From a virus: a DNA stretch of 54,824 nucleotides. Under the pieces are notes generated by a model. It had not been told where the DNA came from. It did no database searches and worked only from the letters and a program-made list of their open reading frames with translations. Below, in pieces: positions 1-50,200 of the stretch. Position numbers and translations under genes: made by a program. The DNA lies in the IMG/VR virus record IMGVR_UViG_3300025671_000082, positions 1 to 54,824 of that record; one strand, 5' to 3'. How positions within the stretch are numbered: the stretch's first letter is position 1; each line of letters opens with the position of its first letter.

Positions 1-431
1 TTTCATAGTCCCAAAGTTTAGTACATCCTAAGCTTAAAGTCAGGTTCTATAGGATTTAGCCTGTAATGTATAATTAAAGATATATCTAAAGATATAGTTA
101 GTTTTTATGTAGTATAAAAAAAAAAAACAAAAAGAACAAACATAATAATACAAAAACAAAAGAAATAAGTTTTAAATTATACATCTTAAATTTATTCTTT
201 ATTACCCACCCCCCACAGGTACCCTCCCCAAAGATTCCTATCGGGAGTAGCCCCGTTCTATCATAAGGGTCAAGTATTTTTTTATTCTATAAAAACAAGG
301 TAGTTTTGGTACCTAGTTTTGGGGTAATTAGCCCCGCTTTTTGCAAAAAAAAAATAAAGATACACCCCCACCACCCCCCGAGAAACCCCGTTAAGGGTCT
401 CCCAGAGAGCAGCAGAGGCGTATCTAAGGTA
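1..431. other. Non-coding leader at left edge
   Basis: No convincing gene is seen here. On the minus strand the stretch holds a hairpin-prone GC segment (about 360-402), a palindrome GGGGTAATTAGCCCC (320-334), a phage promoter (261-283), a G-rich run (204-229) and long A/T tracts (110-160). An ATG on the minus strand at position 6 could be the first codon of a gene that continues past the left edge, but only two codons are visible. The stretch looks like a terminator followed by a new transcription unit. Confidence 0.6.
261..283 (-). promoter_or_regulatory. Phage RNA polymerase promoter, copy 1
   Basis: Minus strand reads A-rich then AAATACTTGACCCTTATGA, identical over 19 bases in five intergenic sites of this window. 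The core resembles SP6/T7-class promoters (compare SP6 ATTTAGGTGACACTATAGA). Transcription would run leftward off the window. No sigma70 -10 box lies 16-18 bases downstream of TTGACC, which argues against a host promoter. Confidence 0.8.
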
Positions 432-2788: not shown

Positions 2789-2981
2789 TAGTCAACTCCT
2801 TCCAAAAGACTTTCCACCTAGGTATGTCATGCCAATCGTAGCAGAGGGGGTGGTGCCTAGGGCCTCCACGCCACATATCCTTCGGTCCGCAGAGTTGGAC
2901 TCTACCTTCGTCGTCCATCAGTGCGGTCTTGTTACCATACGGAAAGTCTATTTCTGGTCCGGTAAAAACGACAGTTTTCAT
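2781..2981 (-). CDS. Hypothetical protein, 66 aa
   Basis: I use ATG 2981 rather than the in-frame ATG 2999, because 2981 overlaps the ThyX stop as ATGA and lies 10 bases after a GGAGG site. The product has many Trp, Gly and His residues (MWRGGPRHHPLCYDWHD). It matches no family I know. Translationally coupled to thyX. Confidence 0.65.
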   Translation of the reverse strand: MKTVVFTGPEIDFPYGNKTALMDDEGRVQLCGPKDMWRGGPRHHPLCYDWHDIPRWKVFWKELTNE

Positions 2982-3748: not shown

Positions 3749-3836
3749 TCTACAGTTTTCCTAGTTTAGTTTGGGTTAACGAGCAGTTTCATCACTTGCT
3801 CAGGTGGGTTCCTTCTACGGTGATTCGTAGGCTATG

Positions 3837-3910
3837 TCAAGTCAACAATCTCACAACTATCCCCAGAGCAGGTCATAGTCTGGATACCAGAAGTATTGTC
3901 CTCAAGTTTA
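3837..3910 (-). pseudogene. Orphan copy of ribonucleotide reductase C-terminal end
   Basis: In one frame this stretch encodes EDNTSGIQTMTCSGDSC followed by EIVDLT and a stop. That is nearly identical to the true reductase C-terminus, which has DNTSGMQTMACSGDSC and the same last six residues. No start codon precedes it. It lies downstream of the 3948-4592 gene, so that gene is flanked by two copies of the reductase 3' end. The likeliest reading is a scar of insertion of the 214-residue gene by recombination at the reductase tail. Confidence 0.85.
3837..3910 (-). repeat. Direct repeat, downstream copy
   Basis: About 74 bases, roughly 85 percent identical by eye to 4608-4681. Both copies have the same orientation and flank a single gene. 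The conserved part includes the coding sequence of the redox-active cysteine pair. Confidence 0.85.
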
Positions 3911-9052: not shown

Positions 9053-9553
9053 CTAATACCTCTTTTTAATTGCTTTGATATATTTCTTAGTAGTTTCTGT
9101 AATAGCTTCTTTAGGTATAAACCTAACCTGACCGATAACTCGATTATAAAACCTAGGCGTTTTTCCGTCAGGTAGTCGTTCAGTTAAACACTCTGAAACC
9201 ATTTGGGAGTAAGCTTCTGAGTAGTAAAGCCCTCCTTTTGTTTTATAAACATCCACGATTTCAAAGTTAAAAGAATCGTAGCCTAGGGTTTTAATATCGC
9301 TTTGAAGGTGAGTAGATGATCCTATATAAGTTCGCCAAAGGCTTTCTTTTCCATGACCTTTGGCACTTGCTTTTTTACCTACACGCCAGAACTGCTTTTT
9401 ACCCCAGTAAAACTGATTGCTAGATTTATTTTGAATACAATACAAGAAACCAAATGCTTCAGAAGGATTGACTTTGACTTTAGAAGTCCAATGCCCCATT
9501 TCATTCTTTAATAGCGGCTTCGTATACTTCCCTTTTGATTCGGAAGTGATCAT
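9053..9553 (-). CDS. Seg-like GIY-YIG endonuclease, ~166 aa
   Basis: The core matches the phage Seg/GIY-YIG pattern: GFLYCIQNKSSNQFYWGKKQF (here slightly diverged at YWG) followed by WRTYIGSSTHLQSDIKTLG and FEIVDVYKTKGGLYYSEAY. Such free-standing nucleases cut intron-less or variant phage DNA and drive their own spread. I use ATG 9553 because of the GGAGA site 8 bases upstream; it overlaps the exonuclease gene by 53 bases. ATG 9499 is the alternative. The insertion next to the exonuclease gene suggests that gene as target. Confidence 0.75.
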   Translation of the reverse strand: MITSESKGKYTKPLLKNEMGHWTSKVKVNPSEAFGFLYCIQNKSSNQFYWGKKQFWRVGKKASAKGHGKESLWRTYIGSSTHLQSDIKTLGYDSFNFEIVDVYKTKGGLYYSEAYSQMVSECLTERLPDGKTPRFYNRVIGQVRFIPKEAITETTKKYIKAIKKRY

Positions 9554-10223
9554 TAAATTTTCTCCAAATATGGATAAGACGCCCGTTAGCAAGAAGGTAA
9601 GAATAACCTTCATCCCCGTGAGCGTTGTGATACGCTTTACATACAGCGTTGCGCAGCTCTTCGTGAGTGCCAGCGTCAGCTAAAAGTTTTTCAGCCTTTT
9701 TCGGACCTACTCTCCTTAGCCCCGGTATGTTATCAACACTATCACCTGTTAAAATTTGTTGCCAGTAGAAACGATTAGCGTATTTTTCGGTGATTTGATA
9801 GATTTGTTTAGTCCGAGGATTATAGTGAGTTCCTGGAATACAATCCAAATCTTTATCTACAGACACAACAACACGGTTGATACCTGCATTATCACACTCT
9901 AAAGACCATATACGGACAAGATCGTCAGCTTCACAGTTGTTAGTTTCCTCACAACCTTCAAGTTGAGCAGCCCAAGTTTTTAGATTACCAAACCAATCAG
10001 GTCTGTTGTCTTTGGCTTTCTTCCTGTTTGCTTTATAGTCAGGAAACAAGTCTACTCGAAAGTTATCAGGACCGCCAATAGCCATAACATAGTTAGTAGT
10101 AAACAAGCTATTTAAAACACCATCAAGAAGATCTTTAAACTTAGATTTTCCTTCTTCTAGTGTTTCGCTATTCCATATAGACATGTATAATAATACATCA
10201 CCATCAATGATAGCTATAGTCAT
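9501..10223 (-). CDS. FEN-family 5'-3' exonuclease, 240 aa
   Basis: Structure-specific 5' nuclease, counterpart of T7 gp6 and the polymerase I 5' nuclease domain. It removes RNA primers and degrades host DNA. Visible metal-binding motifs are DGDVLLY at the N-terminus, YKANRKKAK, CEADDLVRIW, VDKDLDCIPG and the helix-hairpin-helix GDSVDNIPGLRRVGPKKA. Length fits phage members. It is the first gene after a phage promoter (10264-10286), with an AAAGGAG site before ATG 10223. Confidence 0.9.
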   Translation of the reverse strand: MTIAIIDGDVLLYMSIWNSETLEEGKSKFKDLLDGVLNSLFTTNYVMAIGGPDNFRVDLFPDYKANRKKAKDNRPDWFGNLKTWAAQLEGCEETNNCEADDLVRIWSLECDNAGINRVVVSVDKDLDCIPGTHYNPRTKQIYQITEKYANRFYWQQILTGDSVDNIPGLRRVGPKKAEKLLADAGTHEELRNAVCKAYHNAHGDEGYSYLLANGRLIHIWRKFNDHFRIKREVYEAAIKE

Positions 10224-10263: not shown

Positions 10264-10286
10264 TCATAAGGGTCAAGTATTTTTTT
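10264..10286 (-). promoter_or_regulatory. Phage RNA polymerase promoter, copy 2
   Basis: Same 19-base core AAATACTTGACCCTTATGA preceded by A-rich sequence. It lies in the 66-base gap between the dCMP deaminase stop and the exonuclease start, so it drives exonuclease, primase-helicase and the nucleotide-metabolism genes. Downstream sequence AGAGGCCCC could be the start of the transcript. Confidence 0.85.
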
Positions 10287-18005: not shown

Positions 18006-18027
18006 TCATAAGGGTCAAGTATTTTTT
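18006..18027 (-). promoter_or_regulatory. Phage RNA polymerase promoter, copy 3
   Basis: Core AAATACTTGACCCTTATGA between the 62-residue gene and the SSB gene. It gives a short, strong SSB transcript that ends at the terminator at 17358-17385. Confidence 0.85.
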
Positions 18028-18037
18028 GCCCTTATTT

Positions 18038-18226
18038 TTATACGATAAACCAACTACGGTTTAGGTCTTCAGTGTAGAGTTCTGCGTAGAACTCAAATTC
18101 AGAGTCGCCGGGATTAACCAGCACCTCAAGATACTCTTCCTCTGGACCAATAGCTTGGACATAGCAGGGTGCTCTTTCTCCTTCAAACTCTACCATGATT
18201 GTGCTTCCGATCTTAGGCAAAAGCAT
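18038..18226 (-). CDS. Hypothetical protein, 62 aa
   Basis: Beta-rich small acidic protein (GSTIMVEFEGERAPCYVQAIG) that looks like an SH3-like or small barrel fold. It overlaps the 3' end of the RNA polymerase gene by 14 bases and is co-transcribed with it. Function unknown. Confidence 0.6.
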   Translation of the reverse strand: MLLPKIGSTIMVEFEGERAPCYVQAIGPEEEYLEVLVNPGDSEFEFYAELYTEDLNRSWFIV

Positions 18227-20402
18227 AGTCAGACTCCTTTACAGCGTTTAAGTCTAGATTACCCTTTTCAGGGATTAGGTGGATAGCATCCATCTGCACC
18301 AAGATATGATACAAAGGATCCATCTCGTACAACTCTACAAACTTTTGACGGACGTGATTAAACATGTGTCCCATGTTACCAGCATGGCAACCAAAGGAGT
18401 CATGTACAACAGTCACTTCGTAGTCTGCATCATGTACAACCATAGTCAAATGCACAGCATCTAAACTATGAACAATATTTGGGGAAGCGCCTGTCTTTTG
18501 TTTAGTCTTTTTAAGTGTCGCTTCTTTCCATACTTGTATGTTAAGCTTAAGTATGTCATCCCCATAATAAAGCTGAACACGCTTCTTTTCAGGGTCTCTG
18601 TAAGAGTGTACAAAAGGAAACCCTGTTACAATTTGCTTATAGGTAATAGGCTTGTCTTTTTCATTCTCTTGTACAGCAAGCTGCTCAAACATACTAAGCA
18701 TTTTAGCGGGGCCGGGAAGCTTTTCATAGCACAAGGAATGGACAACACGACCTAACTTGTAGCCCCAAGAGTCATGCATGTCCCGGTGGTATTCCGATAG
18801 GTCACGAGTATCGTCAATGATTTGTTGACCCATACCTCGCTCAGTACCTCCGTAAGCTAGTGTCATAACATTTCGTTTGAGTGTTTTACGCCAGACCTTA
18901 CGGTCAGTAATCTTAGACCAATAGATAGGCATTGAGTCTTGAATATACTGATAGTTGTGGTTTTTAAACTTCCCAAACTTTTGCCAAGCAAGCCTGTTCT
19001 TTTCTGTCTTAGGTTGATACTTCTGCAAGTCTTCTAAGGTGCTTTGCCACTCTTCAAAGAACTTATCAAACTTGTCTTTGTCTGATTTCTTTACTGTTCC
19101 AAGCAACTCCTTTATTTTTGCTATTGTGTGGTCTGCAATAAACATATAAACATCACCGGGTAGGTCTTGAGGAACAAGATTAACCAAGGGAGCAATCTCT
19201 TCGTCTTTAGACATTGCTACTAGGTGTTGTACTCCGTTGTTTGACCCATCAATGTAAATAGGTAAGCATGAGGGGAAATCTTCTGTTGGCAAGCCATCAC
19301 CATGCCAGTTTGATAGCATAGAGAACTCGTAACAAGCCGCAAGAAAACATAACGGTTTATCAGCATCCATCCAAGCGTTATTACCAACAGGATCATCAAC
19401 ATAAAGCAAGATGTCGTCCATGTTGTCTTGAACCCACTGGACACGATCATCAAGAGAGACCTTATCGTTACCCCACATATTAGCCGTATGAACAGAAAGC
19501 CAGTATAACCCCTCTTCCCCTAGGGGTACTGGTGTGTCTAACAGCAGCAAACCTTTTGCGTTATCTGAAGACTGCTCATGAAGAAATGCTGTATTAGGGT
19601 AGATACGACCTCGGAAATCAACGTTGTAAAGGTGGTAGAAAGTGTTGTCTAAGTTTCTTTCTGCCAGAGCTTCAATGGCGTTGAGTTCAATTAGCAAAGA
19701 AGCTTTCTTTTCTTTGTCAATTTCTTTTGAATACTTGAAGGGTGTTTTTTTTAGGTTGCGTGTTTTCTTGAACACATCAAATACGAAAGAGTTAATACGC
19801 CAGCCGGTTTGTCCCAGCTTGTTTAACGTATCGATAAGATAAGACATGTCATTATTCTTTACCTGTTTAATCGCATTCTCGTGAGCGTGTTTGATTAGAC
19901 TAACCCCAGTTTGCTTGTGTAGAAACTTATTGTACTCCCAAGGTTCAGGAGCAGAGATAAGAGGAAACAAATCAACGTTCCCTTTGTCTACTAGATGCAT
20001 CATTTCTTGAATAGCATCCATGTTGCGGACTTGAATGTAGTAAGTAGGGTGTTTGTCGCGTTTCCCCTTTGAATTCTTCCTGTGTTCTCCTTTGTAAGAT
20101 AATATGTTCGTTTCGAAGTAAGAGATCAATATAAACCAACCGATGTGGCAAGCAGTAACAGCGTCTTCTGTCAGTTTTTCCCGACGCATAACTGCTGAAC
20201 CCATGCCTTTAACAAGGTTCGATAGGGTTGATTGTCTCTCAATTGCTTGCAGAACATGACCGTAAGTCATTTCTATTAAGTAAGTCGGATCTAGTTCTGC
20301 AACTTGATAAGCTTTGTTTCTTTTGTCAACAGAGCCAGTTTTACTTATCATTGATTGTTGTCTGAAGTTTAAGTCTTCAGCAAGTAGCTCTATAACATTC
20401 AT
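18213..20402 (-). CDS. T7-like single-subunit RNA polymerase, ~729 aa
   Basis: DNA-dependent RNA polymerase for the phage middle and late promoters. It has the DFRGR motif near residue 263, motif A IYIDGSNNGVQH near 384, motif B KTLKRNVMTLAYGGTERG near 510, and motif C TVVHDSFGCHAG near 667, all with catalytic residues intact. I use ATG 20402 (AAAGGA site 12 bases upstream) over the in-frame ATG 20444. It is shorter than T7 polymerase (883), mainly at the N-terminus. It presumably recognises the five AAATACTTGACCCTTATGA sites. A second polymerase of this family is encoded at 38439-43952. Confidence 0.93.
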   Translation of the reverse strand: MNVIELLAEDLNFRQQSMISKTGSVDKRNKAYQVAELDPTYLIEMTYGHVLQAIERQSTLSNLVKGMGSAVMRREKLTEDAVTACHIGWFILISYFETNILSYKGEHRKNSKGKRDKHPTYYIQVRNMDAIQEMMHLVDKGNVDLFPLISAPEPWEYNKFLHKQTGVSLIKHAHENAIKQVKNNDMSYLIDTLNKLGQTGWRINSFVFDVFKKTRNLKKTPFKYSKEIDKEKKASLLIELNAIEALAERNLDNTFYHLYNVDFRGRIYPNTAFLHEQSSDNAKGLLLLDTPVPLGEEGLYWLSVHTANMWGNDKVSLDDRVQWVQDNMDDILLYVDDPVGNNAWMDADKPLCFLAACYEFSMLSNWHGDGLPTEDFPSCLPIYIDGSNNGVQHLVAMSKDEEIAPLVNLVPQDLPGDVYMFIADHTIAKIKELLGTVKKSDKDKFDKFFEEWQSTLEDLQKYQPKTEKNRLAWQKFGKFKNHNYQYIQDSMPIYWSKITDRKVWRKTLKRNVMTLAYGGTERGMGQQIIDDTRDLSEYHRDMHDSWGYKLGRVVHSLCYEKLPGPAKMLSMFEQLAVQENEKDKPITYKQIVTGFPFVHSYRDPEKKRVQLYYGDDILKLNIQVWKEATLKKTKQKTGASPNIVHSLDAVHLTMVVHDADYEVTVVHDSFGCHAGNMGHMFNHVRQKFVELYEMDPLYHILVQMDAIHLIPEKGNLDLNAVKESDYAFA

Positions 20403-20464
20403 GCAATGGTTATTCCTTTTGTTGTGGACTAGGTGAGTTTTCACTCCACTTTGTTTAGGACTGT

Positions 20465-21872: not shown

Positions 21873-21900
21873 ATTATAGAGGGGAATACTGCCCCAGTTT
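21873..21900 (-). promoter_or_regulatory. Early promoter family, copy 4
   Basis: Minus strand AAAACTGGGG, 13 bases, TATAAT. Shares TGGGG and CTCTATAAT with three other sites at 28-29 kb. The GGGG and CCCC blocks form a small dyad. TATAAT is a perfect host -10, but the -35 position reads AAAACT rather than TTGACA. It lies 33 bases before the membrane-protein gene. Confidence 0.75.
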
Positions 21901-24712: not shown

Positions 24713-24984
24713 TTGTATCTCCATAAGTAGGTGTTTTGCCCGAGCAGGCCCCAGACCTTGCCCCAGATATTACCCCCGACATTGCCGTAGACATCGCCCT
24801 CGACATTACCCACGACATCGCCGTAGACATCGCCGCCGACATCACCCCAGACACTGCCATCGACACTACCTAAGACATCTCTGATGTGCAGATTGCCATC
24901 ATCATCCTCAATGAACGTGATTAGTTTTGCGAGTTGATCCAGTTGGGATTGGCTCAGGTTGGTTTCGAGTTTTTGTTCAGTCAT
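24709..24984 (-). CDS. VxGxV-repeat beta-solenoid-like protein B, 91 aa
   Basis: Same layout as its upstream neighbour: a start MTEQKLETNLSQSQLDQLAK, a bridge with IEDDDGNLHIRDV, then about 12 repeats of the four-residue form V-x-G-(D/N/S). The tetrad suggests a parallel beta-solenoid or beta-helix. Start ATG 24984 follows AAGGAGAAACAAA. Clearly a tandem duplicate of the 25028-25357 gene. Function unknown. Confidence 0.75.
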   Translation of the reverse strand: MTEQKLETNLSQSQLDQLAKLITFIEDDDGNLHIRDVLGSVDGSVWGDVGGDVYGDVVGNVEGDVYGNVGGNIWGKVWGLLGQNTYLWRYK

Positions 24985-25027
24985 TTTGTTTCTCCTTGAT
25001 TTCTTTCTTACATTCCTCAAGGTCGTC

Positions 25028-25357
25028 CTATTCGGACTCTTTGGCATTGCTTAAGACACTGCCCTCGACGCTGCCCCGGACACTGCCTAAGACACTGCCC
25101 CAGACACTGCCCCAGACACTGCCTTTGACATTGCCTCTGACATTGCCTCTGACATTGCCTCTGACATCGCCCACGACATCACCTAAGACACTGCCATCGA
25201 CACTGCCCTCGACATTGCCTCTGACATCGCCAAAGACATCACCTTGGACATCATCGATATACAGCTTGCCATCCTCGTCTTCGACAAAGGTGATGAGTTC
25301 CGCAATTTGATCCAGTTGGTCTTGCGTCATATTTGTTTTTAGTTTTTGTTCAGTCAT
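25028..25357 (-). CDS. VxGxV-repeat beta-solenoid-like protein A, 109 aa
   Basis: N-terminal helix MTEQKLKTNMTQDQLDQIAE, then FVEDEDGKLYIDDV and about 17 repeats of V-x-G-(D/N/S/K), encoded by 12-base units. The repeat number differs from the downstream paralogue, consistent with expansion by slippage. Beta-solenoids of this sort can act as DNA mimics, as in MfpA-like proteins, or as structural scaffolds, but the pentapeptide rule is not met here. Function unknown. Confidence 0.75.
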   Translation of the reverse strand: MTEQKLKTNMTQDQLDQIAELITFVEDEDGKLYIDDVQGDVFGDVRGNVEGSVDGSVLGDVVGDVRGNVRGNVRGNVKGSVWGSVWGSVLGSVRGSVEGSVLSNAKESE

Positions 25358-25415
25358 TTTGGTTCCTTTCGTTTTTGTCTAAACCAGTGACTTACGTCGT
25401 CACAAGGATCGTCGG

Positions 25416-28336: not shown

Positions 28337-28366
28337 ATTATAGAGGGTAGAAAAACCCCAGTTTTT
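28337..28366 (-). promoter_or_regulatory. Early promoter family, copy 1
   Basis: Minus strand AAAACTGGGG, 13 bases, TATAAT, located 48 bases before the 27957-28289 gene. Shares the TGGGG/CTCTATAAT layout with the sites at 21873, 28846 and 29290. Directly preceded by the inverted repeat at 28366-28388. Confidence 0.78.
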
Positions 28367-28845: not shown

Positions 28846-28876
28846 ATTATAGAGGGCCAAATTTCCCCACTTTTTT
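28846..28876 (-). promoter_or_regulatory. Early promoter family, copy 2
   Basis: Minus strand AAAAGTGGGG, 13 bases, TATAAT, 26 bases before ATG 28820. Same layout as the other three copies. Confidence 0.78.
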
Positions 28877-29289: not shown

Positions 29290-29318
29290 ATTATAGAGGC
29301 CAAATTTCCCCAATTTTT
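29290..29318 (-). promoter_or_regulatory. Early promoter family, copy 3
   Basis: Minus strand AAAATTGGGG, 12 bases, TATAAT, 29 bases before the HNH gene. It marks the start of the early region just after the end of the late structural operon. Confidence 0.78.
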
Positions 29319-36545: not shown

Positions 36546-37646
36546 TTAAGCGTGGAAGATCGGCAGGATGCCCAAGTTCAGTGCGTCCATTTTACGAGCA
36601 TACGAAGCGGCAGCACCAAAGGCAGCGTCTGTAGCGAAGGCAGTAGTTGCGCCAGCCCAGTCGTAACCCATCGGGTGCATCGCATAACCCCAGCGATACC
36701 AAACGTTGGTTGAGCCACCACCAGCGTAGGAAGCAGCGTTACGGTCAACTTCAACCGGCGTCGGAACAGGCATAGCTGCGGAAGCAACGGAACCCGGCTT
36801 GATGATGAAGGTCGTCTTGGTGGACTGAGCGTTAACTTCAGCTTCAGCCGACAGGTTGCCTTGGTTAGCACGAGTCATAATCAGACGGAACTTACCACCG
36901 AAGATGGTCGTGAATTCGATGTTGCCTTCAGTGACGGTTGTTTCGTCAACGAGGTTGGCAGCACGCATTTCAGCCATAACTTCAGGCGAAGTCACCATGT
37001 ACATGAAGTCCGGTTCATAGTCCTTGAAAGCTGCTCCGATGGAACGGAACAGGCGCTCACCACGAGCAGCACCAATAGCGGAGCTATCGAACAGTTTACG
37101 AGCATCGCCAGCGCCAGTAGCGGCTGCGCCGTGCAGGCCAGCAGCGTTAACGTCAACGAATGCGCCAACACCTGCTGTATCTGCGTTGGTGTCGAAGTCG
37201 ATCATACCGGAAGTCGTGCCGAGGCTAACTTCGTGAGCAGCAACACCTTTGAGAACTGCCAGCAGAGCGTCATGTTCGTCCTGTGCGCGAACTTCAGCGA
37301 AGTCACGGGCGATCTTTGCCAGACCGTCCTGCTTGGAGACAACTTCCTGCATGTTAACTTGTTCTGCACCGAAAGTACGAACAGTCTTAACAAAGTCAGC
37401 AACGTCTGTGCTGATGCCGGTGTAGGTTCCGTCTGTAGCGGACGACAGCGAAGCAACGTTCACAGTGGCCGACAGAGGCTTGTACCAGCGGAACTGACCG
37501 ATGAAGGATTCTCCCGACAGGTCAATGCGCTGATCAGCAGCAACAATACCTGTGCCGTTCAGCTTCTTAGCTGTGGTGTAGGCTTCGTCCGAGTAAGCGG
37601 AGATGGCCAGAGCAATGTTCTGGAAATCAGTGTTAGAAATAGGCAT
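36546..37646 (-). CDS. Major capsid protein, 366 aa
   Basis: HK97-fold-like capsid candidate: helical N-terminal segment, VRTFGAEQVNMQEVVSKQDG in the spine helix region, and MTRANQGNLSAEAEVNAQ in the E-loop/P-domain region. Its position directly after the scaffold gene, its length and its GC-rich high-expression codon use are the main evidence. The gene is more GC-rich than most of the genome. Confidence 0.85.
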   Translation of the reverse strand: MPISNTDFQNIALAISAYSDEAYTTAKKLNGTGIVAADQRIDLSGESFIGQFRWYKPLSATVNVASLSSATDGTYTGISTDVADFVKTVRTFGAEQVNMQEVVSKQDGLAKIARDFAEVRAQDEHDALLAVLKGVAAHEVSLGTTSGMIDFDTNADTAGVGAFVDVNAAGLHGAAATGAGDARKLFDSSAIGAARGERLFRSIGAAFKDYEPDFMYMVTSPEVMAEMRAANLVDETTVTEGNIEFTTIFGGKFRLIMTRANQGNLSAEAEVNAQSTKTTFIIKPGSVASAAMPVPTPVEVDRNAASYAGGGSTNVWYRWGYAMHPMGYDWAGATTAFATDAAFGAAASYARKMDALNLGILPIFHA

Positions 37647-37673: not shown

Positions 37674-38348
37674 TTATAGGTTAAAGTTACCTAGTTTACC
37701 TTTCGCGGCAAGAGCTAGAATTTCTTGAGTTGTTAGTTCACCAATAGGTTTGGTGACATCAGTGGAAGGCGCTCCAGCCGGATTGCCTGTTCCTGCACCA
37801 GTGTTAGACTTAACACGGAACAGGAATGAGTTGTCTTCGGATTTAGCATAAGCTTCTACATAATCACGAATATTTGAACCTGTAGAGTGAACCCATTGAC
37901 CTTCTTCGTTTTGAACCAGTTGTTCAACAATTTCACGACGAGCCATGTCGCGTGATTTATCGTTGCGGAAATCCATACCAGCGAGTGCATCATTCAATAC
38001 ACTGTCTCGCTTAAGCTGCGTGGTTTCTTTTGCGTAAACTTCTAGTTTAGCTTTAGCTTCGGCAAGTTCCAGTTCAAGAGCTTCTTGAATTTTACCTTCT
38101 TCTTTCATACGGGCAATGGCTTCTTCTTTTTGTTTTGATTCCATTTCCGCTTTAAGCTTCAGGGCTTCATCCCGCTCTTTAGACATGCGGTCCATGTTTG
38201 CTTTCATCTTAGCCAGTCGTTCTTGAACGATAGCTTCAATGTCGTTTTCAGGGGTTTCTGGAGTTTCCTGAACTTCAGGAGTTTCTACAGTTTCTTCTAC
38301 AACAGTTTCTTCTGTTGTGTTTACTTCGTTCTGATTATCTTCAGTCAT
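37674..38348 (-). CDS. Capsid scaffold protein, 224 aa
   Basis: Acidic N-terminal tail (many Glu/Thr/Val), then a long coiled coil at ~50-115 (MSKERDEALKLKAEMESKQK), then a C-terminal region that probably contacts the capsid. No protease motif is seen, so this is a scaffold. ATG 38348 follows AAAGGAAATAAC. Confidence 0.8.
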   Translation of the reverse strand: MTEDNQNEVNTTEETVVEETVETPEVQETPETPENDIEAIVQERLAKMKANMDRMSKERDEALKLKAEMESKQKEEAIARMKEEGKIQEALELELAEAKAKLEVYAKETTQLKRDSVLNDALAGMDFRNDKSRDMARREIVEQLVQNEEGQWVHSTGSNIRDYVEAYAKSEDNSFLFRVKSNTGAGTGNPAGAPSTDVTKPIGELTTQEILALAAKGKLGNFNL

Positions 38349-38438
38349 GTTATTTCCTTTCAAGCACAGCTTGGGTTATATGTGTAAGTTTGAGTCACAG
38401 ACTCTATTAATTAGTTGAAGGCGTAAATATTACAAATA

Positions 38439-39459
38439 TTATGGCCCAATTCCATAGAAATCAAATCCCGGTTTTATCGGTTCAATGATTTCTTGATAAG
38501 TAAGTGCGTCAGGTCCAGACTGTAGCAGCCCATCTCGTTTAGCACGTTCTAAGTATTTTCGGTAAGTCTTTCTAGACAAACCCTGACGTCTCATTTCTTT
38601 GAGAGTTTTGTCAATAGTGCCTGACTTCAGTGCATCTGCATACAACTGGCGTAAAGCAAATTTCGCAGGAACTGCGTCACCTAAGTTTGTAAAGAACGCG
38701 TCGTGGATAGTACCCGTATCGATATTGTTCTCTCTTCCCCAAAGGTGAAATCTTCGGACAAGCACAGCGTCATTACTGTGGTTACCGTTAACACCAAGAC
38801 CAATAGCAGCGTCCTGTATTGATTGCTCAGACAGAAGTTTACCGTCTTTTGCAGGTGCTTCATATATATTGAACACTTTCTGCCCAGTGACAGGATCAGT
38901 GAAATCAATCCTTACTTGTTCCTTTGTACGATAGCGTTGCATCATTGTTTTACCATCGAAAGTTACCCAAGGAATATCTGTTGTCTGTGCTTCACGAGCA
39001 AAATCTTTTGCAATGTCTTTCCAGAACTTGATAAACTTACCAGTAACAGGAACCTCTGTTTCAAGATGACCAGACATAATTGATGAAATCTTATCGAATA
39101 GCCGAGTACCTACAAGGTCTCCGGTTTCATCTCTAAGCTTAAACAAAAATGTATGCATCTCTTCAGAGTTTTTAATTCCATCTCTGAACTCACCTTTAGC
39201 GGTTTCATACAGAGACTCTGTGATAGGTTTGCCTGACTTAGAGGCTAGTACCACATCTTTCTTAATGTCGCGTAATTCGTCAATACGTGTCCAATTTTTT
39301 CTGTCCATTTCAAAGCTAATCTTAGCATCAATAGCCTTCTTAAACTTTTCAACTTCTTTAGATGAGATAGAGACTTTACCTTTTTTAGCAAGCACCTTTG
39401 CAAAAGCGTCCGCAATATTTTTAGCTTTGGTAGCCGATCCGGCCCCATAGAATGTTACC
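38439..39459 (-). CDS. MuF-RNA polymerase fusion, exon 2 (polymerase C-terminus)
   Basis: Second part of the split gene that begins at 43952. It encodes the end of motif B (VTFYGAGSATKAKNIADAFA) and the rest of a single-subunit RNA polymerase, with motif C near residue 1437 of the spliced protein (TGTIHDAFFTN). It would lack a proper start if it stood alone: the first in-frame ATG would remove motif B. The frame is open up to the intron end, and exon lengths 3551+1021 give a total of 4572 bases, divisible by three. Confidence 0.88.
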
Positions 39460-40401
39460 CAAATTATTCAGCAAGGTAGTCACTCCTTGCCCGTGTAAAA
39501 GGCTCTACCGGAAGAAAACCAACGTTTAATTGTTCTATGAGAAACGTTATGAGCCTTAGCAGCATTGCGTAAAGAATGATATGTTTTGCCATCTACCGAT
39601 ACTTTTTTTGCGCGATGATGAGATTTGGACATTCTTTTCGACTGTGCCTTTTTAGCTTCTTCGGACCAAACGCCCTTAGCAGGTTGTTTACCTTTTGATC
39701 CAATTCTACGGTAGTAAGAACGTACCGCTTCTGTTTGTTTTCTCATTTGGTCTTCTGTGTTTTTCCGTCCTGACAAATGTTCTTTTGAAAATTTAGAATA
39801 TTCTTCTCTCAACCTTTTGAATTGAGTCGAACCTATTAGCTTATCTTTACCACAGTTCATAAATCTGAACGCATAGGTCATTTCAAAGTTATTATGTATT
39901 TTCCAAAGCAAAAAGTGAGCAAGGTAATGTTCTCTTGCTGTCAGGTAAGTGATGTTATCACTCTCATCAGAGCCGCCCATAGATTTAGGAATAATGTGAT
40001 GACCTTCTGTGTAAATATCAGAGGGTTTCACATTACGTCCGTATTTTCGTATGAGTTCATCGTAATGGTATTGGTAGTTCATTTATTTTCCTTTTTTTTC
40101 ACTGCTATATGTTTCCATATAGTTTAGACTATATCATCACTTGACTTGTTTCAGCTTACCCATAAATACTGCCCAAGCAGGATTAGAGTAATACCTCTTC
40201 CATTGTGTTAAAGTTTTAACAATGAATGGCCTTTCAGCCCATAGTACAAGTGCTCTGCGCTTCCATCTGACATTTAGATGTACTCCCTTCGGATAGTCGT
40301 TGAACGTTCCCCTTGTGGGGCTTCGCTGCTGATTGCCTACGTCATTACACGTTTAGGTTTTCCAGCAATTCACAGAGTTTAAAGAACACAGATTTAAGTT
40401 T
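39460..40401 (-). other. Group I intron (IA-like) with HNH homing endonuclease
   Basis: 942 bases. Minus-strand core elements are P (AATTGCTGGAAA, 40359-40370), Q (AATCAGCAGCG, 40324-40334), R with GACTAT (40293-40298) and S with ATAGTC (40127-40132); R and S form P7. P1 pairs the exon end AGAACAT with GTGTTCT (40383-40389), ending in the diagnostic U-G at the 5' splice site. The last intron base is G (39460). The endonuclease gene lies in the region after P7/S, as in many phage introns. Confidence 0.9.
39480..40082 (-). CDS. Intron-encoded HNH homing endonuclease, 200 aa
   Basis: HNH motif HHIIPKSMGGSDESDNITYL followed by a second His (REHYLAHFLLWKI). The C-terminal ~45 residues (VSVDGKTYHSLRNAAKAHNV and SHRTIKRWFSSGRAF) form an intron-endonuclease repeat / NUMOD-like helix-turn-helix for target recognition. 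It should cut intronless alleles of the MuF-polymerase gene near motif B and so spread the intron. Confidence 0.9.
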   Translation of the reverse strand: MNYQYHYDELIRKYGRNVKPSDIYTEGHHIIPKSMGGSDESDNITYLTAREHYLAHFLLWKIHNNFEMTYAFRFMNCGKDKLIGSTQFKRLREEYSKFSKEHLSGRKNTEDQMRKQTEAVRSYYRRIGSKGKQPAKGVWSEEAKKAQSKRMSKSHHRAKKVSVDGKTYHSLRNAAKAHNVSHRTIKRWFSSGRAFYTGKE

Positions 40402-43400
40402 ATGTTCTGGTTTTTAGCAGCTTTCATTAAGTCAGACCAATCAAGGTCTAATTCAGCAAGTTCAGGTATTGCCAAGAACTCAGGGTCGTTGACAGTGCGT
40501 TTAGCAATTTCGTCGTACAGACGCTGTTTCTTATCGGTTTGAACAACGTTAGAGAGGTTAGCAGCCGCTCTATCTTTTGTGGAAAGAGCAATAATCTGCG
40601 CACCAGAAGAACTAGCGTCGTTTTCAATCATCATCTTGGTCTTGTACTTAGCAAGCTTTCTGATATCTGCTGAATTAAACTGCCGTTTATCTGTTGGCAT
40701 CTTACCATCCATGTGACGGTATATACGAGTGTATTCTAGAGCCAAACGAGATACTTTGCCGATGTGTTCATCATCAAGACCCATTTGATGGGTTTTCTCA
40801 ATGAACTTACGAACCTGACCTGCTCTTTGGGAAGGCTTGTCTAGCATATAGCTACCAAGCTCTAGTAAGTCATCTTCTACAGCTTTAAATGCTTTTAACC
40901 TACCTTGCACTGTAAGAACATCTAGTGGGTTCCCGACAGCGGCACCTATTTGAGTCATAAGCTCTTCTACTGCGTCTGGTGTCATAGAAACACCTTTTGC
41001 CGTATTTAAGAACGGACGCACGGTTTCACCCTTAGTTGGAGTTAAAAGACCACGGTGATAAACACGACCTCGGAAGTCAATAGAGGCGTCTACCGAGAAG
41101 GCTTGATTACGCTGTCTATGGAATTTAGCTGTTGCAAGAACACCTCTTCCATCATTACCACGAGCATCGATAAACAGTTTCTTCCACTCGTTCTTTTCAA
41201 GCAACGCAGCATCACCTGATCGTTTAGCTTTAAAGTAGATTACTTCTTCGGCAAAGTCAAAGAAATCAGGGTCTACTTGGTACTTCACTGAGTTAGCGTG
41301 ATTAAGCATTTTAGCTATATCACGATCAATCTGCTTTGGATCATAGTCAGCAAAGACGTTTTCAGATACGACAGGTTGAGAGGTTTTACGATTACGAGCA
41401 TCAAAGTAAACTTTTTCTCCCGCCTTAGCGTAAAGCTGATCACGTCTATGGTATACCCCAAACCGCCTTGCAGCACGAGTCTTAGCATTAGCAATTTGTA
41501 GTTGTCTTAAATCACCATCAACAATTTGAATTTGTTTAAACACAGAAACACCGCGTAAAGACTTATCGCGAGAAGCTAAACCTGTAGCCAAGTCAATAGG
41601 AGAGCTTGTGCCACTATCACGAAAAACATCAGTACGGATTATCCCTTGGCGCTCAAGATTTGCAAGTATTCTGGACCCATCCTTATGAAACTCTTTTAGT
41701 GTTTTAGATCTAAAAGGATTTAAACTACCAAGCTCATCATCAAACAGCTGACCAATCTTAATAGCAAGCTGATCGTAGTCTGCACCGTCTGCAGCGGCAA
41801 TCATTTCCATAGACTTAGACAAGGCTTTAATGGTTTTGTCGTTTATGGTTTTAATAGCCTTTTCTCGGTAAAAATTAGTAACCCTTTCTCGGTAAAAATT
41901 AAATAAAAAATCTAGAGCAATCGCGTCAAAATCTGCGATGCTGGGTACGTCAGAAGCAGAAAGTTTTTCTGAAAGTGTTTCTATAATAGATTCAAGGGTT
42001 GTTTCATCCAAAAACTCACCGTCTAAAATTTTACGGGTATTACCTCGGAGTTTAGAAATTTGTTGAGTGATCCAAGAGTCGCTTGGAAGTTTTTCTTTGT
42101 TTAGCTTTTTCCATAGTTTATAACCGGGAAGTTTTTCAAGAAGAAACTTCTTAGCATTAAACTTCGGATAACGCCTAATGATAGGCTGTGTGTAAGCAGC
42201 GATAGGGGCCTTGCGATTGTAGAAGGCTCTACGAGCTAAGTTAGCACCTTGTTTTTCAGGCCAACGAGCAATGTAGCGGTTATCTTTGATTTGAGAGTCA
42301 ACTAACTTAGAGATTGTAAACTTTTTACCGAGAATGTCAACCTCTGGATCGTCTTTTAAACGACTGTTAAGCGTACCAAACATCCTACCTCGCTCAACAG
42401 CGCGGTTAAACAGTGTAGTACCTTGGTCCTGAACAGCATTCAAAGTAAACTTACGGAATACAGAAACAGGGGTCCCCCAGACTTCTCCGGTTTTGTTAGC
42501 CCGAGAAAAAGTTTGACGAAGAACATCAACAACAACTGATCGTTGGTTTACAGAAAGAGACCTGTCTAAACTATTTACAAAATCTCGTATATAGTCTTGT
42601 TGTTTAGTTGTTAGAGCATACTGTTCAAAAGAAAGCTTCTCAAGCCTCTCCGCTAGAAACTCTGGATCAGGAGGTTGTAAATGCTTGTAAGGCCCATCCC
42701 CATAGTCTGTCCCATCGGCGCTAAAGGCAGCACCCTTGCGATCGTTTTTGAAATAGCGCCTTGAACCTTGTTTTTGAGACAAAGAGTTTCCCTTGTAATC
42801 GACAAGGGACAAAGCTTGTGCGTTTTCACCAGCATCATTTTTAAAGAAATCCTTTAGTGCTTCGGTATTAGCCTTAGAACTCATAAGTTCATCTGGGGTG
42901 TTAAACCTAAGCGTACCTGTGTATTCATTGGTTGTAGTAGGGCGTCTAACTGTTCTATTAGCACGACGCATTAGTCCTCGAATACTCAAAGCCTTACCTT
43001 CAGGAGAAACAAACTCTTCAGCCTTCAGTCGTCCTTTTTGAAACAACGAGGCTTGACGCTCACCACCTAGTAGTTTAGTTTGAACTTCAGTTGTTTGACG
43101 CCTTAGCCATTCTCCATAGGTCTTAATCTTTGAAGGTTGACCATCCAGGTCTGCGGAATGAACTTTGTTTAGTTTCCTTGGTTTAATTTTATCTGAGGTC
43201 ACGCCTTCCAGAGCTTCTTTAGACTTTACTACCGGAACAAGAGTTGATCGACAGTTAAAGTGAAGCGGCGGTTGGAAACGGTTATCATCAACATCATAAA
43301 CCTTACCATTGTGATGAGTACAGATAGGGCTGGTACGGCTATCAAGAATAGCAGTAAACATGTAGCCTTCAAACAATTCTTTGTTTTGTTGTACAACATC

Positions 43401-43952
43401 ATTCAAAGCTTGAGTTTGAGCCGCTGTAATAGAAGTTCTTGTTAGTGTCTTGGCTTGATGCTCTGTAATCTTAGTTGTTTTCAGAACATCATTAATAATT
43501 TCGTTGTTAGCTTTCCCCGCAGCAAGTCCAGCTTTAACTTTAGATTGTATGCGGACTAGTTCTCCAGAAGAGATATTGCTAACGTTTCTAGTAATAGATT
43601 TAGCACCCTTAATGTTTGGGCCAGTAATCTCTTTCACAAGATCAGCAGTCTTAGGTTTTTGTGTACGATAAAACCCTTTCACTTCCGCGTGAAGGTTATT
43701 ATAGTGAAAACTCTTATTTGCCTTTGTAAATTGAGTAACAGAGCCTACAATAGACTTGTTAATTTCTTTAGCAAAACGGTTAACTTCAGGTTTCACATCG
43801 CTCCGAATGTTCTTCTTTAAAACTTCTGCTAAGTTTTTACGATGTGTTCTTAGTATTTCACGTTGTGCTTTTTGTTGACCATTCTCGTAGAGTCGAACAT
43901 CAGTGCTGTGATCTACGATCCTGTCAAAAATCTTTTCGTTAATTGTAGACAT
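40402..43952 (-). CDS. MuF head protein fused to single-subunit RNA polymerase, exon 1
   Basis: Residues ~1-240 are a MuF/SPP1-gp7 domain: TRTSITAAQTQALNDV then DSRTSPICTHHNGKVYDVDD and PPLHFNCRS with CxxH...C. After a long middle region the polymerase begins: thumb/N-terminal region KMLNHANSVKYQVDPDFFDF, DFRGR near residue 957, motif A ENDASSSGAQIIALSTKDRA with Asp near 1112, and motif B Lys at 1180. Translation without splicing would stop 15 codons into the intron. Spliced length 1523 residues. It is a candidate virion polymerase. Its order relative to portal and scaffold is normal for MuF proteins. Confidence 0.88.
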
Positions 43953-44012: not shown

Positions 44013-44087
44013 TGGTGCTGAAACTCAGATTTGAACTGAGAACCTACGCTTTACAAGAGCGTTGCTCTGCCGTTGAGCTATTTCAGC
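44013..44087 (-). tRNA. tRNA-Thr (anticodon UGU)
   Basis: Full cloverleaf on the minus strand: acceptor GCTGAAA/TTTCAGC, D arm GCTC/GAGC, anticodon stem ACGCT/AGCGT with loop CTTGTAA (anticodon TGT), T arm CTCAG/CTGAG with TTCAAAT, and encoded ACCA end. It starts right after the portal stop codon, so it must be processed from the head-gene transcript. It reads ACA codons. Confidence 0.95.
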
Positions 44088-45659
44088 TTATTCTTCCTCT
44101 AATTGAATCTCTTCATCCGGTGTTTTATTTGTTAACGGATCAGTTTGAATCTCTTCAACCGCTTCTTCGTCGTTGTAATCAGCCGGAAGGAAGTCATTGT
44201 ACTTGGCAATATTAATCCAAGTGCTACGAGAGATAATACCACTCTGATACCATTCACTGACAAGGCGCATTGCACCTTCACCGCCAACAATAGGAGAGAA
44301 GTCAGAGGATAGTTGGAAGTTAATGTCATTACCTGTATATTCGGTGCCATACTTCCAATTCAGCATGAAGGCAATAACTTCTTGCATTGTGCTTGAGATT
44401 TTAGCGTTCATGGTCCCAAGTTGAGCAGTTTGAGAAGCATTACGGATTTCAAGAGCAACACCAGAAGCTGCTTGTTCGGGAGAGAGCATACGAATTCCCA
44501 TCTTTGCCATTTCAGAAACAGTAGCTTCAATAGCTCGATCCATGTCACTCAAAGCACTTGTAGGTGTTTCAAGGACAGTAATAGACTCATCTTTACGGAC
44601 ACGTAGCCAAGTACCAAGACCTGCATTCACGAGTTCTTCAAACTCTTCGTCAGTCATGTCAGACTGCACCACAGGGGTATAGGTCGCAGCACCGTATAAC
44701 AGGTGGTTACGGCGAGATACTTTGTTGTACAGAGCTACCTCTCTGTCAATCAGAGGCATAAGTACTGGTTCAATTGGCTCTAGTTGTCCGTTAAGCGGAA
44801 ACGCCGGGATACGATCCAAACGCTGACCAAACTTCATAGGATAAACAGTGTCGTATTTTTGGAAACCACCATCAGCAGAATCTATGTATTCTTGAGTGAT
44901 TACACCATTCAAAGCTTCTACTTCGTGAGAACCATGAGCTTTCTTATAGTAATCAAGTACCAAAAAACCCTGCTCATCAAGATAGTGATCACAAACAGTA
45001 TCAACATAGTCTGGATGCCAAGGGTTGTTTGAATCATACTCTTCCATAATGTAACGAGTAACCATACGGGTAAGAGTCTTAGCGCGAGTAATCGGATGAG
45101 TCTTTACTTGAACATTAATAACGTTTTCAGCCTTAATCAAAACAGGGTAAGGTGAAATTTTCATACGCTCTTCCGGCATCATTGATTCTAGTTCAGCATC
45201 AGGCACAACAGGGTGATCAATGTAAACCCAAGCACGAGAAGTTTGAAGTTCTTCCCAGATAGCAGCATCTAAGAAATTAAACAAGGATGCACCATCAAGG
45301 GTAAAGTCTTTTGTGATCCAATCATAAGCTTGTACTTGCTCAAGCTCTTCAGGTAACTTAAGTTGTGAAGGCTTACGAAGCAAAGCACTAATTAGCACAC
45401 GAGCATACTGTGTTGTAAGCCCCGGTAGCTCTGCTTCTGACTTGTAGAAGTCATACTGGTTTTGAGTCATGCTAGGTGAAAAAGGCAGTAGCAAGTTATT
45501 GTAATCAACCTCTATGAATTCATCATGTGCTTTAGCATGAGCTTCACCTTGAAGCACAGCACGGGCTTTTTTCCACAAAGGCTTAAGAGACATATAAGAA
45601 GCACTAGGTGTTTCTGGTCCTCTTTTAATAGTATTAGCAGCTGTCTTAACGAGCGCCAT
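44088..45659 (-). CDS. Portal protein, 523 aa (DUF4055-like)
   Basis: Dodecameric DNA gate at the capsid vertex. Size, the position before the MuF gene, and segments such as EDLSFLNFLDAAIWEEL-type helices, the FPLNGQLEPIEPVLMPLIDR stretch and the VALEIRNASQTAQLGTMNAK region fit DUF4055 portals. The C-terminus is acidic. Preceded by phage promoter copy 4 and a ~110-base AT-rich leader. Confidence 0.82.
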   Translation of the reverse strand: MALVKTAANTIKRGPETPSASYMSLKPLWKKARAVLQGEAHAKAHDEFIEVDYNNLLLPFSPSMTQNQYDFYKSEAELPGLTTQYARVLISALLRKPSQLKLPEELEQVQAYDWITKDFTLDGASLFNFLDAAIWEELQTSRAWVYIDHPVVPDAELESMMPEERMKISPYPVLIKAENVINVQVKTHPITRAKTLTRMVTRYIMEEYDSNNPWHPDYVDTVCDHYLDEQGFLVLDYYKKAHGSHEVEALNGVITQEYIDSADGGFQKYDTVYPMKFGQRLDRIPAFPLNGQLEPIEPVLMPLIDREVALYNKVSRRNHLLYGAATYTPVVQSDMTDEEFEELVNAGLGTWLRVRKDESITVLETPTSALSDMDRAIEATVSEMAKMGIRMLSPEQAASGVALEIRNASQTAQLGTMNAKISSTMQEVIAFMLNWKYGTEYTGNDINFQLSSDFSPIVGGEGAMRLVSEWYQSGIISRSTWINIAKYNDFLPADYNDEEAVEEIQTDPLTNKTPDEEIQLEEE

Positions 45660-45793: not shown

Positions 45794-45815
45794 TCATAAG
45801 GGTCAAGTATTTTTT
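45794..45815 (-). promoter_or_regulatory. Phage RNA polymerase promoter, copy 4
   Basis: Core AAATACTTGACCCTTATGA, followed by GGGAGGCCCCC and the AT-rich leader, then the portal gene. It drives the head-tail operon. Confidence 0.85.
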
Positions 45816-45905: not shown

Positions 45906-45924
45906 TCATAAGGGTCAAGTATTT
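45906..45924 (-). promoter_or_regulatory. Phage RNA polymerase promoter, copy 5
   Basis: Same core, with AATA instead of AAAAA just before it. It lies 1-20 bases past the endolysin stop. Downstream sequence folds into small hairpins (CAGAT-ATCTG, GTCCT-AGGAC) and a terminator, so it may produce a short RNA. Confidence 0.8.
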
Positions 45925-47227: not shown

Positions 47228-50200
47228 TTACTTAAACCTTATAAATAGGATTAGATCATTTTTTACAGTAGTACCTGATCCAGTTTTATTCGAGTAAAAG
47301 GTTCTACTCACCCCGTTGTTAACCGTAGTGTTCGCAACAAGCGTACCTTTTATCCCTGCACTACTGGAGTCAGGAGACAAGTCGGGCCGAGTAACATCTA
47401 CTGAATCAAGACTAGTAGTATTCTTTAAAAGTTCAATACCAACCGTCGCAGAACCCGGACCTGTAGTAGAAATATTGTATGAACAGAAAACAAGAATTTC
47501 AGCTTGCACCCCACTGTTGTTAGTAAAAGCAATAGATTTGTCAGCAGTACCTCCAACAGAGCTTTCAACAACAGAAACCGCAAACCCTGCAATCTGAGCA
47601 GTATCTACCGCTAAGTTACCGATTTTAGCATTAGTGATTGCAGCGTCAGCAATATTAGCTGTATCAACTTCAATCGTACCAAGGTCAGCAGAAATTGCAG
47701 AAAGATCAGTTACGCTAATTTTGTCTGCTGTAACTGCATTCGCTTGAATTTTGTCTGATCTAACGGCATCTGTATCAATCTTACCTGCAGTAATTGCGCC
47801 TGCTAAAATTTTGTTTGACACAATAGCATTTGAAGCAATAGAGTTTGTAGTAACCGCTCCAGCGTCGATCTTATCTGTTGTAATAGCATTTGCGGCAATT
47901 TTGTCAGCTTCAACTGCTCCGGCAGCCAGCTTACCTGCTGTAATTGCACCGGTGTCAATCTCAGTAGCAGTGACCGCCCCTGCTGCAATCTTGGCTGTTG
48001 TAATAGCCCCCGCAGTAATCTCAGCAGCAGTAACCGCTCCAGCGTCGATCTTATCTGTTGTAATAGCGTCTGCTGCAATTTTATTTGTTGTAATAGCGCC
48101 CGCTGCTAGCTTACCTGTTGTAATAGCCCCCGCTGCTAACTTTGCAGTTGTAATAGCACCCGATGCAATAGAACCCGCCTCAATAGCATTTGCAGCCACC
48201 TTATCTGCTGTAACAGCATCAGCATCAAGTTTGGCAGTTGTAACCGCTCCTGCTGCAATAGAACCTGCTTCAATAGCGTTAGCTGCTACTTTATCGGCTG
48301 TAACTGCGTCTGTATCGATTTTAGCTGCTGTAACTGCACCTGCTGCGATAGAACCTGCCTCAATTGCATTAGCTGCTACTTTATCCGCCGTAACAGCATC
48401 AGCATCAAGTTTGGCAGTTGTAACTGCGCCTGCTGCAATTTTTCCTGCTGTAATTGCATTTGCATTTACTTTATTAGCAGTAACAGCATTTGTTGCTATA
48501 GTACTTGCAGTAACCGCTCCTGCGGATATTTTAGCAGTTGTAATTGCGGAATCACTAATTTTAGTTTCTGTGATTGCATCTAGCCCTATAAGGTCTTCAG
48601 TTATTGCTTCATTTGCAATCTTAGCAGTTGTAACTGCACCTGCCCCTATTTTCCCAGAGTCTACCGCTCCCGTTGCAATTTTAGCGTTAGTAACCGCATT
48701 TGCCGCAATCTGACCTGCGTCTACTGCTCCAGTGGCGATCTTAGCATTAGTAACCGCATCCGCCGCAATCTGATCAGCATCCACTGCATCAACTGCAATT
48801 TTAGCATTGGTGACCGCCGATGCTCCGATCTCAGTAGCAGTAACCGCGCCCGCTGCAATCTTAGCAGACGTAACAGCGTCAACCCCAAGCTCTGTGCTTG
48901 TAATTGCTTCTACAGCAATCTTAGCAGTTGTAACTGCATTATTACCGATCTTAGCTGCTGTAACCGCTGATGCTGCAATAGCATCTGAGTCAATACTACC
49001 ATCTTCAATTCCAGTATAAAGCTCGTTTGTCCAAGCGGTTCCTGTCCAACGATACAACATATTGTCAGCAAGATTGAATACAATCTGATTGTCAAAGTCC
49101 CCGCTTGCGGGGAGCGAGTTAACAGAGTCCAATCCAGCTGTGTCTAATATGTCTTGAACGTTTTCATCGAAAGACCCTGAAGCAATCAAGGTAGTAGTAC
49201 CATTAACAGGTCCAACCCAACTTGAGGTGTTTCCAGAAAAGTCAACAGCCCTTGCCCAGAAATACAAAGTTTGCTCATTAGCAAGGTTAGGTCTAATAAA
49301 CTGACCTCGCTCACCGAACCCTGCTTGTGTAGAGTTAGCAAATACGTTTGTAGAACCTTCGTTGACTTCAATATAGGCTAAGTCTTTGTCTGCTGGGGCA
49401 GTGTAGGTTAGTTTTAGAAGCTGGTAGGCTTCTTCTACTGCCAACCCGGTGGGGGCATTTGGAGCAGTATCTTTACCAACGTTAGAATCAGTTGTTGAAA
49501 CAAAGTCACTAAGAATACCTGTAGCAGTACGAGAGCGAACTCGTATATCATAGGTGACGTTTGGAACAATGTTTACAATCTCAAAGTTTTCATTTTGAGT
49601 GACTGCGGAGAAGTAAGTTGAATCTGTTGACTGCTTCCACTGAACTTCATAGTCACGTACCTTAGAGTCGTCTGCGTTATCCCAATCAACTTGGAAAGAG
49701 TTAAATACACTCCCATCACCGCTGACAAAAGTACCAGAGGTTACTGACAAGTTTTCTGGAGGATCTAAGTCAAACTCAAAAGCAGGAGGGCTTACATAAG
49801 CAATGTCATCGTTAACCGACCAAGCTAGGGTATTAACATCGAAATAAATACCAGTAACTTCCACAGTAAAGTTTGACATAACTTTAATGCTAGTTACACG
49901 GAATATCTCGTTTGTCAAGTTTTGTTGAGGTAAAGTAACCTTAAAGAAGTCACCCGGCTCTAAAGACAAACCCTTTTTATTTACCGTAAGAGAAATATTA
50001 AAGGTAGAGCGAGATTCTCGAACAAGCTGCTCTGCACGAGCTTGGGCATGATAAGGGTCAGTGATACCATCTAAAGATACGTTAGCGACAAAAGGTCTAT
50101 TGTTGTCTTCTGTTAGATAAGCGGAATGCGCTGCGCTGTCTGTCACAGGCCAAGTTACCGAGTCTTCGGCAAAGTCTTCATGCTCATTAGCAAACCGTAT

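Follow-up and report, generated by a model that had tools for sequence, protein, structure and literature searches.

Virion RNA polymerases (vRNAPs) allow a phage to begin transcription without the host enzyme. The vRNAP of phage N4, a podovirus, is a protein of about 3500 aa that lacks a MuF domain, and this enzyme (gp50, Schitoviridae) has the single-subunit RNAP fold. According to the part of Iyer et al. 2017 (PMC5512222) available to us, N4-like vRNAPs are restricted to the N4-like phages, and by that account single-subunit vRNAPs have until now been confined to N4-like podoviruses. The same part of that source gives RNase, 2H, RelA/SpoT, PRTase and kinase domains as fusion partners of the MuF head protein, with RNAP not among them. 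A different arrangement is seen in P23-45, where a virion RNAP of the two-barrel (cell-type) kind is fused to the tail tape measure protein and accompanied by a second, non-virion RNAP and two promoter classes (Chaban et al. 2024, PMC10770324).

The gene described here lies in a 54,824-nt viral sequence, the whole of which was analysed and is referred to as the window, and encodes a MuF head domain and a single-subunit RNAP in one protein (MuF-RNAP). It shares the single-subunit fold with N4 gp50, and by analogy we propose that it may also share what is known for N4, namely packaging, ejection, early transcription and hand-over to a second phage RNAP. Its apparent likeness to P23-45 lies in organization: an RNAP fused to a siphovirus virion protein, a second RNAP, and two promoter classes of which the putative virion one is AT-rich. 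The P23-45 enzymes, however, are two-barrel and borne on the tail tape measure, whereas the fold here is of the unrelated T7 type and the partner is a head protein. The protein also recalls the MuF polyvalent and effector fusions in the available part of PMC5512222, in which MuF is paired with an enzyme presumed to travel into the host cell. The same fused protein, intronless, is present in the cultured roseophages DSS3_VP1 and DSS3_PM1 (Naomviridae), where it is annotated merely as 'minor head protein-like'. The annotation of EBPR siphovirus 1 likewise overlooks the fusion. In the literature on MuF and virion RNAPs we found no description of such a fusion, Iyer et al. 2017 being the only relevant paper; the DSS3_VP1 genome paper may mention one.

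A group I intron interrupts the MuF-RNAP gene

The gene comprises two exons separated by an intron within polymerase motif B:

40402..43952, minus strand: exon 1 of the MuF-RNAP gene, encoding residues 1-1183 and two bases of codon 1184
39460..40401, minus strand: group I intron of 942 nt, interrupting polymerase motif B (Rfam RF00028, 103 bits, E 1e-25)
39480..40082, minus strand: homing endonuclease ORF within the intron, HNH/NUMOD-type, 200 aa (weak Pfam matches: HNH 5e-4, NUMOD1 5e-3)
38439..39459, minus strand: exon 2 of the MuF-RNAP gene, encoding the remainder of motif B, the specificity region, motif C and the C-terminus

Joining the exons yields an ORF of 4572 nt that encodes 1523 aa with no internal stops, the splice dividing the Met1184 codon of motif B (AT|G). 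At the 5' splice site the P1 helix AGAACAU/GUGUUCU closes with the usual U.G pair, and the terminal base of the intron is G; together with the covariance model score (103 bits) and exact excision in a second contig, these features identify a group I intron. That second contig (L007, from IMG/VR) matches the window at 99.98 % identity over 10.4 kb, lacks exactly positions 39460-40401 and encodes a 1523-aa protein 100 % identical to the spliced window product, bearing out the initial annotation, which had described a single protein of this length after intron removal. A further IMG/VR contig (L008; 99.99 % identity over 12.4 kb) ends 2 nt beyond the same junction, and the junction at 40402/39459 is thus proven independently by both contigs, which derive from spliced RNA or else from an allele that lacks the intron. 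A 5' splice site with P1 around 40459, as placed by the Rfam alignment, was rejected, since the U.G pair at 40402 restores motif B and L007 confirms it.

Introns at this motif were also found in relatives. EBPR siphovirus 1 carries one 3 nt downstream of the window site with an HNH ORF, its score of 40.5 bits lying under the Rfam gathering score of 50, whilst contigs L217 and L218 carry an ORF-less group I intron of 277 nt (103 bits) at the same site as that of the window. Removal of each of these introns restores the same reading frame.

The spliced protein joins a MuF domain to a complete single-subunit RNAP

The domain and motif positions are as follows, those from the DxxGR motif onwards being placed by motif reading and MAFFT alignment:

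43239..43550, minus strand: MuF (SPP1 gp7-like) head domain, residues 135-238 (Pfam PF04233, E 1.1e-17)
41064..41078, minus strand: DxxGR motif (DFRGR, residues 959-963)
40617..40619, minus strand: motif A catalytic Asp1112
40413..40415, minus strand: motif B Lys1180
39447-39449, minus strand: motif B Tyr1188, in exon 2
38700..38705, minus strand: motif C His1436-Asp1437

The Phage_Mu_F match scored 65.3 bits against a curated cut-off of 29.6, and residues 1-377 matched PHROG 241 (head morphogenesis, E 4e-57). Residues 1097-1476 matched RNA_pol with an E-value of 2.5e-9, above the Pfam cut-off, and the presence of both matches in one protein upholds the reading of an N-terminal MuF part followed by a C-terminal single-subunit RNAP. 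In one MAFFT alignment with T7, T7-like and N4-like enzymes, D959-R963, D1112, K1180, Y1188 and H1436-D1437 shared columns with the known catalytic motifs, the T7 counterparts of which we take to be D421-R425, D537, K631/Y639 and H811-D812. Met1184 of motif B and an HSND motif are also present in the spliced protein. All catalytic residues are therefore in place, as previously annotated, with the earlier motif positions correct to within 2 residues.

An AlphaFold (AF2) model of residues 330-1523, built from a 40-sequence alignment, reached a pLDDT of 77 and a pTM of 0.72. Foldseek matched it with a probability of 1.00 to human mitochondrial RNAP (POLRMT, 8e-19), T7 RNAP (5e-18) and yeast Rpo41 (2e-16). 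Against a viral library the top match was a 1463-aa model, equal in length to the DSS3_VP1 protein; T7-like RNAPs came next, followed by N4-like virion RNAPs with weaker E-values. The predicted model supports a T7/mitochondrial (right-hand) polymerase fold for the C-terminal part, so the T7-family fold on which the initial annotation depended was recovered. For residues 1-420 no significant PDB match to a solved MuF-like fold was obtained, and the N-terminal half is assigned as MuF on the profile matches above.

The fusion is widespread and under purifying selection

Of the known phages searched by tblastn, only DSS3_VP1, DSS3_PM1 and EBPR siphovirus 1 contained full-length homologues, the fused protein being 41.5 % identical to that of the window in the DSS3 phages and about 31 % in EBPR siphovirus 1. 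A profile-based scan of IMG/VR confirmed at least 486 relatives. We examined 82 loci, comprising the best 80 of these at least 486 relatives and two distant MAG loci. MuF and RNAP shared one ORF in 52 of the approximately 53 loci in which the ORF was uncut at its 5' end, with fused ORF lengths of 1428-1603 aa; the sole exception (L074) had an ORF of 850 aa. Motifs A, B and C were intact in all 82 loci and invariant in the alignment. The DxxGR motif was intact within the DSS3-like majority, and in the EBPR/MAG branch A or V takes the place of its glycine.

Estimates of dN/dS were about 0.03-0.12 in the RNAP part and 0.03-0.17 in the MuF part, and both halves are under purifying selection. No second MuF match was found in the 54,824-nt window, and the fusion carries the only one. 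Because almost all uncut relatives encode both parts in one ORF, both halves are constrained and the window holds no other MuF copy, the fusion cannot be a chance event peculiar to a single genome.

Two relatives of MuF-RNAP, 34-35 % identical, were found in a single bacterial MAG on Gammaproteobacteria contigs (L097 and L098), one of which (L098) has DHRVR in place of DxxGR. These are probably phage contigs binned with the bacterial MAG.

The polymerase half appears to form a third single-subunit lineage

An unrooted tree built on 411 trimmed columns showed three separate groups, MuF-RNAPs, T7-like RNAPs and N4 vRNAPs, with long deep branches, identities of about 14-21 % between MuF-RNAPs and the other groups, and an uncertain deep order. 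The N4 vRNAPs grouped separately (100/100), the MuF-RNAPs were set across a long branch from the T7-like group (100/100), and the phage's own second RNAP grouped with the T7-like enzymes (97.9/98). Given this last placement, an origin of the polymerase half by duplication of the phage's own T7-like RNAP is unsupported. Profile comparison (hhalign) gave MuF-RNAP a 92 % probability of matching T7 versus 0.2 % for N4 vRNAP.

MuF-RNAP and T7-like enzymes are alike in catalytic motifs and fold (Foldseek E 5e-18 to T7 RNAP), but MuF-RNAP is only about 21 % identical to them over trimmed core columns, belongs to a distinct lineage and is fused to a head protein; the spacing from motif B to motif C is also greater, at 249 versus 173 residues in T7-like enzymes. 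N4-like enzymes mostly have T or S for the D of DxxGR, the T not being universal among the four N4-like sequences used, and FDG in motif C, whereas MuF-RNAP has D and HDAFF. MuF-RNAPs and N4 vRNAPs have in common an E at the second position ahead of the motif A Asp, as well as a YGxG sequence in motif B. Membership of the N4 type was rejected on the hhalign probability, the separate clade, and the D and HDAFF residues. These comparisons point to the polymerase half as a third single-subunit RNAP lineage, apart from both T7-like enzymes and N4 vRNAPs. The description of the C-terminal part as a complete second T7-like RNA polymerase therefore stands as regards a complete single-subunit enzyme, and falls as regards a copy of the T7-like enzyme, which the tree places in a separate lineage.

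Gene neighbourhood and two promoter-like families

MuF-RNAP lies directly downstream of the portal gene in the head operon, and a separate RNAP gene is present elsewhere in the window:

44088..45659, minus strand: portal protein, upstream neighbour (PHROG 145, E 1e-51)
37674..38363, minus strand: scaffold protein, downstream neighbour (PHROG 206, E 2e-11)
36546..37646, minus strand: major capsid protein (PHROG 247, E 2e-24)
18213..20444, minus strand: separate T7-like RNA polymerase of 743 aa, the proposed non-virion RNAP (Pfam RNA_pol, E 1.6e-79)

The order portal, tRNA, MuF-RNAP, scaffold, major capsid is identical in DSS3_VP1. The tRNA is a single tRNA-Thr(tgt) gene (window 44013-44087), and its DSS3_VP1 equivalent is a tRNA-Asn. 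The separate T7-like RNAP, whose presence had already been noted and proved real, is 47 % identical to its DSS3_VP1 counterpart. In some relatives (contigs L136, L171 and L159) the T7-like RNAP gene is split by an insertion of ~700 nt. The L136 insertion (L136:5114-5298; 3300031392_000003) lies inside DFR|GR, is a group I intron scoring 53 bits and contains an HNH/NUMOD-like ORF. In this phage group introns have entered both RNAP genes at catalytic motifs.

Two families of promoter-like sites, designated P_A and P_B, were identified:

45794..45810, minus strand: P_A site ATACTTGACCCTTATGA, upstream of the portal/MuF-RNAP operon
45906..45922, minus strand: P_A site, tandem, upstream of portal
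18006..18022, minus strand: P_A site, just beyond the T7-like RNAP gene
10264..10280, minus strand: P_A site, ahead of the replication exonuclease gene
261..277, minus strand: P_A site, at the end of the record
29290..29312, minus strand: P_B early promoter-like site 1, closely following the tape measure gene
28846..28869, minus strand: P_B early promoter-like site 2, from motif search
28337..28360, minus strand: P_B early promoter-like site 3, from motif search
21873..21896, minus strand: P_B early promoter-like site 4 (TCTATAATAG), ahead of the T7-like RNAP gene

The P_A sequence ATACTTGACCCTTATGA occurs in five exact copies, all on the minus strand, with 0.20 expected even when three mismatches are allowed. 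It stands ahead of middle and late genes and appears to resemble the T7 promoter in shape. P_B, of the form TGGGG-N10/11-TCTATAATGA (also written TGGGG-N10/11-TCTATAAT), occurs four times versus 0.01 expected; it is AT-rich and within the window is confined to 21.9-29.3 kb, the early region between the tape measure and T7-like RNAP genes. Alignment of 26 sites gave the P_B consensus AAAAAgTGAGAAAA-N5-GCATCTATAATGAta, with fixed blocks over about 30 bp. DSS3_VP1 has 13 sites of its own P_A type outside the early region and two perfect-family P_B sites inside it, at 35812 and 36259 of MN602266, with one further TCTATAATGA at 67796 that has a poor upstream match.

A stricter family P_B pattern run against all IMG/VR returned 78 stretches. 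In the 25 contigs tested, P_B sites were one-stranded within each contig, with no matches to the reversed pattern. MuF-RNAP was present in 11 of these contigs and the T7-like RNAP in 21, and none had neither; in all 21 contigs with a T7-like RNAP, a P_B site lay upstream of that gene on the same strand. P_B contains a perfect TATAAT, which is -10-like, whilst a -35 box at sigma-70 spacing was absent from all four window sites and a sigma-70 scan called none of them. Conserved blocks without a -35 box are as expected for a phage RNAP promoter, as far as the site sequences indicate. A hairpin promoter like that of N4 was also considered for P_B and rejected, the GGGG/CCCC complementarity being unconserved.

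A proposed two-polymerase cascade and its alternatives

The early region carries P_B alone, and therefore a reader other than the T7-like RNAP must act first; MuF-RNAP is the natural candidate. In the cascade that we infer, encompassing packaging, ejection, enzymatic activity and the pairing of enzyme with promoter, MuF-RNAP would be made late from the portal-MuF-scaffold-capsid operon, whose P_A promoters would be read by the T7-like RNAP, and the MuF half would place it in the head near the portal. At the next infection it would exit the head with the DNA and transcribe the early genes from P_B. The T7-like RNAP gene in the early region would then be expressed, and its product would take over at P_A for replication and late genes. 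We assign a probability of roughly 0.74 to MuF-RNAP being a virion RNAP that acts in this way. Counting against the cascade is the size of MuF-RNAP, which at about 170 kDa must pass the siphovirus tail. Because neither a T7-like RNAP nor P_B was found in the partial sequence of EBPR siphovirus 1, which does carry MuF-RNAP, the two-RNAP cascade should not be taken as family-wide.

The strongest alternative, which we nevertheless regard as unlikely, keeps MuF-RNAP as a virion protein and has the host RNAP read P_B, with the ejected enzyme pulling in DNA, priming replication or backing up early transcription. Many phages start transcription with the host RNAP and transcription-coupled DNA entry is known for T7, and the perfect TATAAT of P_B would suit this arrangement. 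The four window sites have no -35 match, however, and the conserved P_B blocks, which span about 30 bp, fall at positions where sigma-70 has no base contacts; the motif also persists between phages with only about 42 % protein identity.

Less probable still is that the RNAP half works solely in the producing cell, in late transcription or coupled to packaging at the portal, and is either not ejected or cleaved off before packaging. Some phages do process their MuF proteins, and the P_A sites upstream of portal predict late synthesis, after that of the T7-like RNAP, as this explanation would have it. Yet neither the window nor DSS3_VP1 showed a protease gene in the interval from portal to capsid, the phage already has a late RNAP, and a covalent link to the sole MuF copy would be a costly way to a cytoplasmic enzyme.

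We consider it very improbable that the polymerase half is inactive and merely structural: the replaced DxxGR glycine in one branch would fit such decay, but motifs A, B and C are intact at every locus examined and dN/dS of the RNAP part is equal to or below that of the MuF half. An artefact of assembly or wrong intron removal, to which the two ORFs and intron of the window itself might point, is already refuted by the near-identical intronless contigs and the intronless isolates DSS3_VP1 and DSS3_PM1, which encode the fusion as one ORF, and by the two further group I introns at the same motif that splice to the same frame.

Returning to the virion RNAP cascade, we lean towards a broader reading, in which these phages would represent a third independent route to a particle-carried RNAP: a separate single-subunit lineage on the portal-proximal MuF protein, with its own early promoter (AAAAAGTGAGAAAA-N5-GCATCTATAATGA) and hand-over to a T7-like RNAP, in a widespread family of marine siphoviruses that could do largely without host RNAP. 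A polymerase covalently attached to a common head protein, in a large family of marine siphoviruses, would mean that head-carried polymerases arose more than once, and MuF-RNAP would give a reason for the two RNAPs of these phages. The question is testable in an existing laboratory phage, DSS3_VP1 on Ruegeria pomeroyi. The P_B motif can be used to search metagenomes for family members, and fusion to MuF points to a way of loading enzymes into phage heads.

DNA chemistry and other features of the window

The DSS3 phages carry dU-DNA (PMC12697855). The window encodes ThyX (2978-3748), and its phage, unlike these dU-DNA relatives, probably uses thymine. On the evidence of this gene, dU-DNA was discarded as a family-wide reason for a vRNAP. 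A 76-nt direct repeat, 88 % identical between its copies (3833-3908 and 4604-4679), lies partly beside and partly within the class II ribonucleotide reductase gene, and an ORF at 9053-9613 encoding a SegE-like GIY-YIG endonuclease overlaps the 5'-3' exonuclease gene. Adjacent early ORFs at 24732-25365 consist largely of 12-nt tandem repeats (GACATTGCC...), with a duplicated block at 24754-24992 and 25127-25365. The tail protein gene at 47697-48995 contains more than 30 tandem 30-nt repeats, and the same kind of repeat is present in the host specificity J gene of DSS3_VP1.
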